Source: Coriobacterium glomerans PW2
GTDB taxonomy: Bacteria; Actinomycetota; Coriobacteriia; Coriobacteriales; Coriobacteriaceae
Assembly: GCF_000195315.1 (NCBI RefSeq)
Contig: NC_015389.1
Span: forward strand, 806,001-870,000
DNA length: 64,000 nucleotides
Direction: 5' to 3'
In this document: positions 18,393 through 60,950 of the stretch, piece by piece
Numbering within the stretch: the stretch's first letter is position 1
How the letters are laid out: every line of letters starts with the position of its first letter
Position numbers and translations under genes: made by a program
Notes under the pieces: generated by a model
The model's input: the letters and a program-made list of their open reading frames with translations, nothing else
What the model was told of the DNA's origin: nothing
The model's database searches: none

Positions 18393-18441
18393 ATCTTGGT
18401 CGGAAACCAAGATGCCTTATGCTCTGGTCGGAAACCAGAGC
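18393..18441 (+). ncRNA. rpmE leader with two identical-loop hairpins (L31 leader type)
   Basis: Two perfect 8-bp hairpins, ATCTTGGT-CGGAA-ACCAAGAT (18393-18413) and GCTCTGGT-CGGAA-ACCAGAGC (18421-18441), stand 7 nt apart just before rpmE. The loops and closing GGT/ACC pairs are identical while the lower stems differ with compensating bases, a mark of selected RNA structure. A -10 at 18373-18378 places them in the 5' UTR. From memory, computational surveys list L31 leader families, one in Coriobacteria; these would bind L31 for autoregulation. That match was not checked. Confidence 0.8.
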
Positions 18442-18462
18442 ACGATCACAAGGAGCCCTTGT

Positions 18463-56513: not shown

Positions 56514-57260
56514 TCACAGCAGGACACCCGAGACGAGAAGGGCGAGCGCGCAAACGAGGACGGCTGCGTCTCGTGACTTCATGGGATAGCGACAAAAGGA
56601 GGAGGATCGCGTCCTCAGGTAGAATCCGCGTTGCTCGGCGGCGAGCGCGATCGAGTCGGTTTTGCCAACCGAGATCACGAGCAACGGGATGCAGACGGGC
56701 AGCATCAATCGGAGCTTTTTCAACGGCATCGCCGTGTCGAATCGAGCGCCGCGTGCGGTCTGCGCCTCCATGATGGCGTTCATCTCACGCGTCAGCAACG
56801 GGATGAAGCGCAACGCCGTCGTGAACGCGAAGGCGTATCTGTAGGGCACATGCAGATTCTCCACGCACGAGTTCGCCAGATCGGTCAGTCTGGTGACGCT
56901 CAGCATGACGATGAGCGGCAAGGCGACCCCGATGAGACGCAGGGACGCCTTCGAGCCGCTGATCAGCCCGTCATCTGTAATGAAACCGATGACCGGAGAG
57001 CCCGTGCGCACAAACGCAAGCTGCAAGACGAGCATGACGATCGCGACCGGAGCGATGAGTTTCAGCAGATCTTTCAGGCGGCGGCCGGCGCGCACCCGCA
57101 GTCCCAGAGCGATCGTGAGAGCTATCAGCGACACCAGCATCGGATAGGTGCTCGCGAGAAGCGTCGCGAGGATGATCGCGACGGCGAAGGCGAGCTTTGC
57201 GACCGGGTTCAGCCGGTGCGGCAACGTGGTGCCGGGAATATAATCGATGACATCAAGCAC
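56514..57260 (-). CDS. ecfT: ECF transporter T component
   Basis: A 248-residue membrane scaffold with about five helices (TLLASTYPMLVSLIALTIAL and others in part). The two Ala-Arg-Gly-like coupling motifs, QTARGARF and AEQRGFY, bind the ATPases. Its start overlaps the fused ATPase gene by 8 bp. Together with the S and A genes it forms a self-contained (group I) ECF system. Substrate is inferred to be tryptophan from the leader. Confidence 0.92.
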   Translation of the reverse strand: MLDVIDYIPGTTLPHRLNPVAKLAFAVAIILATLLASTYPMLVSLIALTIALGLRVRAGRRLKDLLKLIAPVAIVMLVLQLAFVRTGSPVIGFITDDGLISGSKASLRLIGVALPLIVMLSVTRLTDLANSCVENLHVPYRYAFAFTTALRFIPLLTREMNAIMEAQTARGARFDTAMPLKKLRLMLPVCIPLLVISVGKTDSIALAAEQRGFYLRTRSSSFCRYPMKSRDAAVLVCALALLVSGVLL

Positions 57261-59052
57261 GGGAAATCAGCTCCTCTACGGTATCGATGATATCGCATGG
57301 CTCGCGCGCGCCCGCGAAGTCCGGCATACCGGCCTGTGCAAGGGAATCGGCGAGATCGACGATCTGAGGCGGGATGACGCGCGAGCGAGCGAGGGCGGTG
57401 CGATCCGCGAGGACATCCGCAGCAGCATCGTCGCGCGCGATCGATCCGTCCGCCATGACGATCACACGGTCAGCGATATCGGAGACGACCTCCATGTCGT
57501 GGCAGACCATGAGGACGGCCGAGCCGCGTCGCGCCATCCGGCGCACCGATTCCATCACGATCATGCGCGCGCGCCGGTCGAGCCCGCTCGTCGGCTCATC
57601 CAGAACGATCAGCTTCGATGCCATGACGATAACCGAGGCCAGCGCTACCATCTGGCGACTCCCTCTCGGCAAGGAGAAGGGGTTCGCCGTCTCGACCAGA
57701 TCGAGGTCGCCGATGACCTCGCGGGCGCGTCTGTGAGCCTCCCTTTTGGATATGCCGCGCAGCTCCAGACCGAAGCAGACCTCTGCGAGCACGGTGTTTC
57801 TGCATATCTGATGATCGGGATTCTGGAAGAGGGTCGCCGCATAACCCGCGATCTGGGAGACGGCCATGTCCCTCGTGTCGTGGCCCGCGAGAACGATTCT
57901 GCCCGATTTCGGTCTGATCAGGCCGGACACCAGCTTGGTGAGCGTCGTCTTGCCCGCGCCGTTTCGACCCACGATCGCCGCGATCTCGCCCGGGTGCACT
58001 TCGAGGTCGAGATCGCGCACCAGAGCACCGGTTGACGGATATGAATAGCTGACGCCCTCGAGGACGAGCACGGGAGCCGAGGCGGATTTCGCCGGCGCGT
58101 CCCGCCGGGCCTTCTTTTCCTCGCTTTCCCGCTCGCTGCGAGTCCTGCGCCGCCGGTGCTCGCTCGAGAGCCTCATCGGCTCGCGTTCGGCACCAGCCGC
58201 GATGCGCTCGATCATAGAGCGCGCCTCCGCGACACTCAGGCACACGTCCTCAGGGTGACACAGACCTCGCTTCGCAAGGCCGCTGAAGACCCGGGTGACT
58301 CGAGGACTTTCCACCCCGATGCGCCGCAGCTCGGCCTCGCGGGCGAAGACCTCTCGGGTGGTTCCGGCGAGTGCGATGCGCCCGGCGTCCATGACGAGGA
58401 TGCTTCGGCAGAACTCCGAGAGCGTCGCGACCGCCTGCTCGATGACCGCTACGGTGACGCCCGCCTCTCGGTTGATCTCGGCGAGCGCGCCGAAGACCTC
58501 GCGCGCGCTCGCCGGATCCAGCGCCGCGCAGGGCTCGTCGAGCACGAGCACGCGTGGACGCAGAGCCAAAATCGAGGCGATGGCGACCTTTTGCAGCTGC
58601 CCGCCCGACAGCGTCGCGATCTCGCGCCCTCGCAGATCGACGATGCCGACGAGCTCGAGCGCCCACTGGATGCGCGTCTCGATCTCATCACGCGCGACGG
58701 CGAAGTTCTCAAGGCCGAACAGCATCTCGTCCTCGACGCTGGTCGCGACCATCTGAGCATCGACATCTTCAGAGACGCTGCCCACCGTCCTGGAGATGTC
58801 GGTAAGGCTGATCTCGCAGCTGTCCGACCCATCGATGAGGGCGGCACCGTAGAAATCACCGTCGAAGTGGTGGGGTATCGCGCCGGACATGACCCGGGCG
58901 AGCGTGGACTTGCCCGAACCCGAGGGCCCGACGATCCCGACGAAGTCACCGGGATCGATCGCGAGGTCAACGGCGTCGAGTGCTCGGGTGTCTTGCCCGG
59001 CGTAGGAGTATGAGACGCGATTGAGGGATATGACCGGTTGCATGTTCGCCAT
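57253..59052 (-). CDS. ECF transporter ATPase, two A domains fused
   Basis: A 599-residue fusion of two ABC ATPases. Domain 1: Walker A GPSGSGKST (42-50), signature LSGGQ (148-152), Walker B LVLDEP (169-174). A charged linker of about 35 residues (residues 288-324) follows. Domain 2: Walker A GRNGAGKTT (362-370), Walker B IVLDEPT (482-488), but the signature reads LPRGSRQ (461-467), a clear departure. Only one fully consensus ATP site may therefore form. It lies 6 bp after the S gene. Confidence 0.93.
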   Translation of the reverse strand: MANMQPVISLNRVSYSYAGQDTRALDAVDLAIDPGDFVGIVGPSGSGKSTLARVMSGAIPHHFDGDFYGAALIDGSDSCEISLTDISRTVGSVSEDVDAQMVATSVEDEMLFGLENFAVARDEIETRIQWALELVGIVDLRGREIATLSGGQLQKVAIASILALRPRVLVLDEPCAALDPASAREVFGALAEINREAGVTVAVIEQAVATLSEFCRSILVMDAGRIALAGTTREVFAREAELRRIGVESPRVTRVFSGLAKRGLCHPEDVCLSVAEARSMIERIAAGAEREPMRLSSEHRRRRTRSERESEEKKARRDAPAKSASAPVLVLEGVSYSYPSTGALVRDLDLEVHPGEIAAIVGRNGAGKTTLTKLVSGLIRPKSGRIVLAGHDTRDMAVSQIAGYAATLFQNPDHQICRNTVLAEVCFGLELRGISKREAHRRAREVIGDLDLVETANPFSLPRGSRQMVALASVIVMASKLIVLDEPTSGLDRRARMIVMESVRRMARRGSAVLMVCHDMEVVSDIADRVIVMADGSIARDDAAADVLADRTALARSRVIPPQIVDLADSLAQAGMPDFAGAREPCDIIDTVEELISRA

Positions 59053-59058
59053 CTCGAA

Positions 59059-59646
59059 TCACTGGTCGCCGAGCTTCAAAGTGAATCTGATCGGCAGGTA
59101 GAGCGCGGCTGCGAGCACCGAGTTGAACACAGCTGTGGCGACGACGACCGGAAGCATCACAAGGACGATATTCTGTGCGAATCCCATGATCGCCATCTTG
59201 ATGAGCATGAAGATGACCCCGGATGCGGCGGTCGCGATGAACGTGCCCCCAGCGGGAATGATCCATTTGACAGGCGATGACATTCCCGCTCTCACGATGA
59301 GCGCCATGACGACTGCACCGACGCTCTCCGCAGCGAAGTCGACAAGAGGGGAGGCGGTCGTGATCTGGATGATCGCAGCGGATATGAGACCGATCACGAG
59401 CGCATGGCCGATACCCGGGCGCACGACCAGTATGGTCAGGCAATACGCTGCGATCACGAACTCGGGGTTGATCGCACCGCCGCTCAGGGCGCCGATAGCT
59501 TTGCCGATTGTGAAATCCAAGATGAAGCCGGCGGCGATGAGAGCTGCCAGCAAGACGAGCGACCTTAAATCGAGGCCGCCTCGATCGATGCGTGTGACGC
59601 TGCGGGGCCCGCAGGCGGGATCGGGCACGTGGGTGCTCTGAGACAT
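59059..59646 (-). CDS. ECF transporter S component, TrpP-like (predicted tryptophan)
   Basis: A 195-residue substrate-binding membrane protein with about six helices after a 30-residue polar N-terminus. INPEFVIAAYCLTILVVRP and IGLISAAIIQITTASP recall the GxKPD...IGxxxGxxxALTTxFP pattern of TrpP. The ATG at 59646 has AAAGGA upstream. It is preceded by an apparent tryptophan attenuator, the main reason for assigning Trp as substrate. The rest of the operon is the fused ATPase and EcfT. Confidence 0.85.
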   Translation of the reverse strand: MSQSTHVPDPACGPRSVTRIDRGGLDLRSLVLLAALIAAGFILDFTIGKAIGALSGGAINPEFVIAAYCLTILVVRPGIGHALVIGLISAAIIQITTASPLVDFAAESVGAVVMALIVRAGMSSPVKWIIPAGGTFIATAASGVIFMLIKMAIMGFAQNIVLVMLPVVVATAVFNSVLAAALYLPIRFTLKLGDQ

Positions 59647-59749
59647 GGAAGACATCCTTTCTTGAGGAGCGCGATGAGGTGAAGGCGGAATCGCCGAGCT
59701 CGCGGATTCGATCAGGTTCGGACCAATCGGTAAAAAGAGGCCTCGACGC

Positions 59750-59777
59750 AAAAAGGCCCCCGGTCCAACCGGAGGCC
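59750..59777 (-). terminator. Attenuator terminator of the Trp-ECF operon
   Basis: On the minus strand, GGCCTCCGGT-tgg-ACCGGGGGCC forms a 10-bp stem with one T-G pair, followed by TTTTT. It lies 34 bases after the leader-peptide stop and 104 bases before the S-component start. The 5' arm is also complementary to a segment in the end of the leader frame, which gives the alternative antiterminator. Confidence 0.9.
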
Positions 59778-59810
59778 ATCAGAATGCCGATGTGGCAGTT
59801 GCGTGAGGGG

Positions 59811-59824
59811 CTCAGTCTCGACCG
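59811..59824 (-). promoter_or_regulatory. Antiterminator segment
   Basis: CGGTCGAGACTGAG on the minus strand can pair with CTCCGGTTGGACCG of the terminator (10 of 14 plain matches and at least one wobble). It spans the last codons and the stop of the leader peptide. A ribosome reaching the stop would mask it; one stalled at the Trp codons, about 20-30 bases earlier, would leave it free. Confidence 0.7.
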
Positions 59825-59880
59825 AGGGGGCATGCATCTCGCCAGGCCCAAGCTGCGATCGTGTCACTCAAGGTATCCAT
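59812..59880 (-). CDS. Tryptophan leader peptide
   Basis: A 22-codon frame with Trp codons 11 and 13 (AAWAWRD). The ATG has AGGAG 9 nt upstream. It begins about 45 bases after a probable extended -10 promoter (TGCTACAGT, minus strand, -10 at 59937-59932). Its arrangement before the antiterminator and terminator is that of classical trp attenuators: starvation for charged tRNA-Trp stalls the ribosome and lets transcription continue into the transporter genes. Confidence 0.85.
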   Translation of the reverse strand: MDTLSDTIAAWAWRDACPLGRD

Positions 59881-60032
59881 AATGCCCTGCTCCTCTCTGT
59901 CGCGTGATGCGACTCGCTGTCGACGAGGACCACTGTAGCACAGCCGGAACGCAGCGAGGCGCTCTCCTTGAAAGATCGCGAATCTGTTTCAGCTGCTCGA
60001 CACTCGCTGCGGCGCAGGTGCTTCGCCGCGTT

Positions 60033-60950
60033 CTATCCTTGCAACTTCGAGAACTCGTCGACGATGATGTCTATGCATCTGGGCAGCACGCGCGCGCTGA
60101 ACACCCCCGAGTTCGTGGGGATGAGCTCGCCGTCGTATTGCATGCCGAGCGAGGGGGTGCACGTGACGCGAACCTCCGTCGTCTGAAACATCGTGAACTG
60201 GGGTCGACCGAGTCCCTTGCCGGCCGGGTCGAACGCGGCAGCCAAAAGGGTCGGTAAAAGCTGTACGGTCGTAGCGGGTTCAACGACGGCGACATCGATC
60301 AGGCCATCATCCATGCGGCAGTCTGGAAACAGATTGATCTCATTTTGAATCAAGGCGGTGTTGCCCACCATGCATGCGATGCCGTCGAGTGTGTCCACCT
60401 TGCCGTCATGCTCGATCGTGAACCGCGCGACCTGCGGCTCCGGGGTCGATAGGGCTGACAGAACGTAGGCGATCTCGCCGATGTCGCTCTTTGAGGGAGC
60501 GGCCTTCTTCATGATCGTCGCATCATAGCCCGATCCGGCGATGATGATGAAGCCGTGTCGCAAGCAGGTGCCCCGCTCATCGCGCCATGACAGCTCGCCC
60601 ATGTCGACTTGGACGGTGCGGCCCGCCCGACACGCTCGCGCGAGCGCTGCGGCGTCAGGAGCATTGCCGATGTTGTTGAAGAACAGATTCGCCGTGCCGG
60701 AGGGGAAGACGAGCACGGGTACGCCGGAGTCGCGCAGACAGTCAAGCACATTCGAGACCGTTCCGTCACCGCCGGAGACCACCACGCGATCGAATGAGCG
60801 CACATCGGTCACGGCGGCAGCCGGCTCCAGATGCGCCCCTATGAAACGCAAGACGAACTCGTCGCCGCCCCGGGCGAGCTGGTGGCAGAACGTGAAGACC
60901 TCGTCGGTCCTGGGACCGGAGGCGAGGTTGTGGAGGATGAGGCAGCGCAT
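60033..60950 (-). CDS. Diacylglycerol/lipid kinase family protein
   Basis: A 305-residue kinase of the DagK/YegS group: SGGDGTVSNVLD (ATP site), FPSGTANLFFNN, and DDGLIDVAVVEP in the C-terminal domain. It probably phosphorylates a membrane lipid. The start has GGGAG upstream. Located before the Trp leader on the same strand, with 150 bp between; it is probably a separate unit since the leader has its own promoter. Confidence 0.88.
   Translation of the reverse strand: MRCLILHNLASGPRTDEVFTFCHQLARGGDEFVLRFIGAHLEPAAAVTDVRSFDRVVVSGGDGTVSNVLDCLRDSGVPVLVFPSGTANLFFNNIGNAPDAAALARACRAGRTVQVDMGELSWRDERGTCLRHGFIIIAGSGYDATIMKKAAPSKSDIGEIAYVLSALSTPEPQVARFTIEHDGKVDTLDGIACMVGNTALIQNEINLFPDCRMDDGLIDVAVVEPATTVQLLPTLLAAAFDPAGKGLGRPQFTMFQTTEVRVTCTPSLGMQYDGELIPTNSGVFSARVLPRCIDIIVDEFSKLQG

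Follow-up and report, generated by a model that had tools for sequence, protein, structure and literature searches.

On the strength of sequence comparison, we are highly confident that the region upstream of a three-gene ECF operon in Coriobacterium glomerans is a ribosome-mediated transcription attenuator, which would sense charged tRNA-Trp and control a self-contained ECF importer whose substrate is very probably tryptophan. The leader, its control codons, the terminator, the spacing from the Trp codons to the stop and the potential for alternative pairing are conserved at most of the related loci analysed. Stalling, termination and readthrough in the cell are what we infer from these conserved features.

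The leader, the terminator and their conservation

All positions below refer to the window, i.e., the whole 64-kb stretch of DNA that was analysed. The leader is an open reading frame of 22 codons, MDTLSDTIAAWAWRDACPLGRD*, at 59812..59880 on the minus strand. It is preceded by the ribosome-binding site AGAGGAG (59890..59896, minus strand), which is separated by 9 nt from the ATG, and the leaders of the relatives also follow a ribosome-binding site. Codons 11-13 are TGG-GCC-TGG (Trp-Ala-Trp; 59842..59850, minus strand), with the individual Trp codons at 59850-59848 and 59844-59842. Behind the leader lies an intrinsic terminator hairpin of 10 pairs with a 3-nt loop (59755..59777, minus strand; GGCCTCCGGT TGG ACCGGGGGCC), and the T tract TTTTT follows directly at 59750..59754 of the same strand. 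The original prediction had named a 22-codon leader with Trp-Ala-Trp at codons 11-13 and a good ribosome site, as well as a 10-bp terminator stem with TTTTT before the S component gene, and both are indeed present, at 59880..59812 and 59777..59750 of the minus strand, respectively.

The gene upstream on the same strand is YegS/diacylglycerol-kinase-like (60033-60950, minus strand), and its place is kept in about 20 relatives. No sigma-70-like promoter was found by consensus search between this kinase gene and the leader. No Rfam family, including the T-box and the Rfam Trp leader, matched at the leader either at the gathering threshold or at E up to 5. A T-box or another known RNA family was also considered for the relatives that have no Trp leader and was discarded, again with no Rfam match. 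Elsewhere in the window, the L31-Coriobacteria ribosomal protein leader (RF03128) matches at 18421-18455 on the plus strand with 41 bits.

The chance frequency of W-rich leaders was counted within the 64-kb window, in which five short open reading frames with a ribosome-binding site contain WW or WxW, and only this leader has a terminator behind it. A search with the S protein over 298 Coriobacteriia genomes found homologues in 166 of them, and 110 loci, oriented by tblastn, were analysed. At 92 of the 110 loci a short open reading frame with a ribosome-binding site and with WWW or WAW lies upstream of the S gene, and each is followed by a hairpin and a T run. Under a strict terminator criterion the count was 83/110 for the real loci and 0/2200 for dinucleotide-shuffled upstream regions, for which WW or WxW was already accepted as sufficient. 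By these counts the combination of leader and terminator is beyond chance, because it is unique in the 64-kb window and was never obtained by shuffling, as compared to 83 of the real loci.

Conservation of the Trp codons across Coriobacteriia leaders was among the checks that the original prediction had proposed, and it came out in favour: the control codons are TGG-TGG-TGG in 91 of the 92 leaders (WWW) and TGG-GCC-TGG (WAW) in C. glomerans alone. The WAW of C. glomerans, judged against its relatives, is a degenerate run in which the middle Trp codon was lost. The distance from the last Trp codon to the stop is exactly 30 nt in 88 of the 92 leaders, including that of C. glomerans, despite leader lengths of 19 to 34 codons among the relatives. 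The typical leader follows the pattern M(variable)NNWWWRD....GR[RSQW]*.

Leaders were also found in a second genome collection by an alignment-based scan, after a single-protein scan had given no matches; the hosts are Collinsella, Olsenella, Thermophilibacter, Tractidigestivibacter, Parafannyhessea, Atopobium and Lancefieldella, and the Gardnerella leaders of this collection have quite different sequences. In Gardnerella and other Bifidobacteriaceae (L168-L174, L179), Trp-rich leaders of unrelated sequence (..RMWWWQTSLW..) and a terminator stand before a TrpP-like S gene. A tRNA near two of the Gardnerella loci was considered as a possible tRNA-Trp and was identified as tRNA-Arg. No comparable leader was found at the S homologues of Clostridia and Treponema, nor at most of those of the Eggerthellaceae-like family. 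A covariance model built on helix A (described below) and the terminator, R1, matches 114 of the 298 Coriobacteriia genomes and all 54 genomes of the family to which C. glomerans belongs, the family of Collinsella, with exactly one place in the C. glomerans genome.

The ECF operon and its probable substrate

The leader is followed by genes for an ECF S component of 195 aa (59059..59646), assigned from homology and from its size and position, a fused double ECF ATPase of 599 aa (57253..59052; TIGR04520 and TIGR04521 above their cut-offs) and a CbiQ-type T component of 248 aa (56514..57260; PF02361 above its cut-off). The three genes share the minus strand and are nearly contiguous, and the ATPase gene is directly downstream of the S gene in 107 of the 110 loci. 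An operon with S, ATPase and T together is predicted to encode a self-contained (group I) ECF transporter, as had been proposed from the C. glomerans sequence at the outset.

The only match of the C. glomerans S protein is TrpP (PF17099), at 10.3 bits against a cut-off of 27.2, i.e., below the gathering threshold. A scan of 25 members of the S family gave a TrpP match for 18 of them at E up to 1 (4.8e-13 for the best), and relatives from Clostridia, Gardnerella and Raoultibacter exceed the TrpP cut-off. The protein is therefore called TrpP-like here and is not filed as a member of PF17099, because its own score is below the cut-off, though some of its relatives exceed it. S components have one common fold, and no solved structure matches this S family by sequence. 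Tryptophan is very probably the imported substrate, and the Trp leader is better evidence for this than the similarity of the S protein. In many relatives (e.g. L002, L017, L019, L032, L046 and L072) a second S gene is located right behind the first one, and its product is about 40-45% identical to the C. glomerans protein.

Some of the R1 hits elsewhere, with WWW leaders, precede genes for Na+-dependent NSS transporters (NF037979, PF00209) and for TrpB-like enzymes (TIGR01415), therefore tryptophan is indicated independently of the S protein. In one genus (g18 of family f3; L196-L200, L206) the WWW leader and terminator stand before an NSS gene, whose product (NF037979, PF00209) is a candidate second tryptophan importer. 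The WWW leaders of L201-L205 and L207 stand before TrpB-like genes (TIGR01415), and their antiterminator core is CGGATTA or CGGGTTA facing TAATCCG. In the C. glomerans genome itself, profile searches found no TrpA (PF00290), no chorismate-binding protein of the anthranilate synthase type (PF00425), no IGPS (PF00218), no TrpB-like enzyme (TIGR01415) and no NSS transporter (PF00209); TrpA is found in 3 of the 54 genomes of its family. C. glomerans is probably unable to make Trp and would need to import it, because the synthesis genes that were sought are absent from its genome.

It is unlikely that the attenuator senses Trp and the importer carries a Trp-related compound instead, such as indole, kynurenine or another aromatic. 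The S protein of C. glomerans is only weakly TrpP-like, and the tandem S genes in many relatives may differ in their substrates, both of which would fit such a transporter; on the other hand, relatives of the S protein exceed the TrpP cut-off, and the genome has none of the Trp synthesis genes searched for, among them one for a TrpB-like enzyme, by which imported indole could be used. We keep tryptophan as the very probable substrate.

Long-range pairings and the predicted folding switch

Two long-range helices were identified by pairing tests. In helix A, the last Trp codon and the next codons (59837..59844, minus strand) pair with a strand just past the stop (59799..59806, minus strand), and the helix is weak in C. 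glomerans, with two non-standard pairs. Helix B joins the antiterminator segment at the leader end, CCTCGGTCGA (59818..59827, minus strand), to the apex and the start of the 3' arm of the terminator, where folding places the partner GACCG at 59765-59761 of the same strand; at the sequence level, CGGTCGA in the last leader codons faces TTGACCG in the terminator. The original prediction had an antiterminator segment spanning the leader stop. The segment does span the stop, from the final codons to the nucleotides directly behind it, and is aimed chiefly at the terminator apex.

When partner strands were swapped among 38 representatives, the native value was -12.88 for helix A, as compared to -11.35 (sd 0.32) for permuted partners, and -12.94 for helix B, as compared to -11.96 (sd 0.24), and native partners were better in 300 of 300 permutations for both helices. 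Alignment A2 gave the best pairing of each helix at its own register, with covariation scores above those of all 500 shuffles. With partners taken from the nearest relative as the control, the native advantage was small (p=0.13 for helix A and p=0.036 for helix B). The covarying stems expected by the original prediction therefore held against the permutation and register controls, but against nearest relatives helix B was just above the control and helix A was not; fine-scale covariation is modest, because nearest-relative partners pair almost as well. Stronger support for helix B than covariation comes from its recurrence with unrelated sequences and a similar spacing from the Trp codons: the leader end is complementary to the terminator loop as CGGTCGA/TTGACCG, as CGGATTA/TAATCCG and, in Gardnerella, as GTTTACTC/GGGTAAAC, and the median distance from the last Trp codon to the start of the segment is 19 nt (5th-95th percentile 15 to 26). 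Other pairings were tried and set aside, and none was clearly above permuted partners. The 5' arm of the terminator was paired alone with the sequence behind the stop, and also with the leader end, and the Trp codons were paired with each of the two parts of the terminator. The classical 1:2, 2:3 and 3:4 numbering was likewise set aside as having no exact transfer, with the partner of the Trp codons located after the stop and the antiterminator core before it.

The RNA of 87 leaders was folded with the ribosome-covered part masked. For a ribosome placed at the Trp codons, on a transcript that stops just past the terminator loop, the antiterminator was the minimum in 77/87 leaders, versus a terminator minimum in 86/87 with the ribosome at the stop; with no ribosome the terminator was the minimum in 84/87. 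The alternative pairing that the original prediction depended on thus exists, and it switches with the assumed position of the ribosome. In C. glomerans the stalled masking gave the antiterminator fold (-34.1 kcal/mol) even with the complete terminator present, and the at-stop masking gave the terminator fold (-25.0). The finished terminator wins at equilibrium in 69 of the 87 leaders, being more stable there than the antiterminator; readthrough in most relatives would have to be kinetic, as is usual for attenuators.

The following mechanism is proposed from these pairings. When Trp-tRNA is plentiful, the ribosome would reach the leader stop, 30 nt past the last Trp codon, and would hide the antiterminator segment at the leader end, so that the terminator forms and transcription ends. 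When Trp-tRNA is scarce, the ribosome would stall on the Trp codons and the segment would be exposed, since its start lies some 19 nt beyond the last of these codons. Before the hairpin closes, the exposed segment would then engage its apex and the first part of its 3' arm, and the importer genes would be transcribed. In many members the segment may also pair with parts of the terminator 5' arm. Helix A is the likely counterpart of helix 1:2 of E. coli trpL, with a possible role in pausing or in default termination without translation.

It is quite improbable that the leader of C. glomerans is decaying and regulates poorly. Such decay would account for WAW in place of WWW, the only case among the 92 leaders, for the weak helix A, and for the R1 score of 65.9 bits, as compared to about 80 to 105 bits for most relatives. 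However, the ribosome-binding site, the reading frame, the 30-nt spacing, the terminator and helix B are all intact, and with the Trp codons masked the antiterminator is the minimum even at full length in C. glomerans.

A second way to use the same parts would be for the leader and terminator to act on translation or by another route, with the nascent peptide stalling the ribosome in response to free tryptophan, as TnaC does. The conserved leader tail R-D-x-x-x-V-G-R would be consistent with this, but the conservation of the tail coincides with the RNA pairing of helix B, other groups keep this pairing plan although their leader tails are unrelated, and three consecutive Trp codons with an intrinsic terminator indicate codon sensing. 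TnaC-type control acts via Rho and a boxA-like region. We regard peptide sensing as very improbable, and codon sensing by attenuation is the reading that we retain. That the short reading frame and the hairpin arose by chance, the hairpin being merely the terminator of the upstream kinase gene, would suit its place between two same-strand genes, but the idea has next to no credibility and is refuted by the comparative data (92/110 loci, fixed spacing and 0/2200 shuffles).

Relation to known attenuators and meaning for the family

The element is similar to E. coli trpL in its Trp-codon leader, nearby stop and terminator, and in an antiterminator that would be free only during a Trp stall. In E. 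coli trpL the antiterminator lies after the stop and targets the terminator 5' arm. In C. glomerans the antiterminator is mostly within the final codons of the leader and is directed at the apex and 3' arm of the hairpin; moreover, trpL controls a biosynthetic operon, whereas the present element precedes an importer. When TrpE leaders were sought across the phylum, one was of use for comparison, a trpE leader (L209) in which the post-stop CGGCGAG is complementary to the terminator 5' arm CTCGCCG, the textbook arrangement, and no leader was found within the stretch examined in Streptomyces-like regions. Bacillus TrpP belongs to the same transporter family as the C. glomerans S protein by weak similarity. 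Its regulation is by TRAP, which binds tryptophan and RNA repeats, and is not known to involve codon sensing by a leader peptide.

Corynebacterium and Streptomyces have known or predicted attenuators of trp and trpS, with two to three UGG codons, a GC-rich terminator and a U tract (PMC1262725). They are actinobacterial like the present one, but stand before trp biosynthesis genes or trpS, and the passages on them in PMC1262725 name neither a transporter nor Coriobacteriia. A 2015 report on Trp attenuators in Actinobacteria is cited in PMC4833913. A uORF motif before cysS in Rhodobacterales and a trpB motif in Firmicutes and Fusobacteria, the latter with no leader peptide mentioned, have been described (PMC8632094, PMC11109978); like the present element, they are leader-peptide or terminator-linked motifs before amino-acid genes that were discovered comparatively, and Coriobacteriia are unmentioned in both papers. 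No description of the element was found in searches of the open full-text literature on leader peptides, Trp attenuation, ECF/TrpP and Coriobacteriia, nor do the papers on related motifs include it. As far as Rfam and the open literature searched go, it is a lineage-specific element matched in neither, and its mechanism as read from sequence is classical ribosome-mediated Trp attenuation, with a target and a lineage that are new within that literature.

A broader picture can be offered tentatively, at somewhat less than even confidence. Coriobacteriia, and separately Gardnerella, may have a Trp regulon of attenuators built on a non-textbook plan, in which a ruler of about 19 nt sets the distance between the last Trp codon and a segment whose sequence complements the apical loop of the terminator. 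Such a ribosome-gated, loop-directed antiterminator would be free in sequence as long as leader and loop match, and it would control ECF import, Na+-dependent uptake and a TrpB-like enzyme.

The leader would assign a function, tryptophan import, to an importer whose substrate is undecided from its sequence alone, and the covariance model also finds other Trp genes, including those for TrpB-like enzymes and Na+-dependent transporters. Collinsella and related bacteria are common in the gut, where tryptophan is in demand. All sampled genomes of the family carry the element, and it suggests how the relatives of Collinsella may decide when to take up tryptophan.
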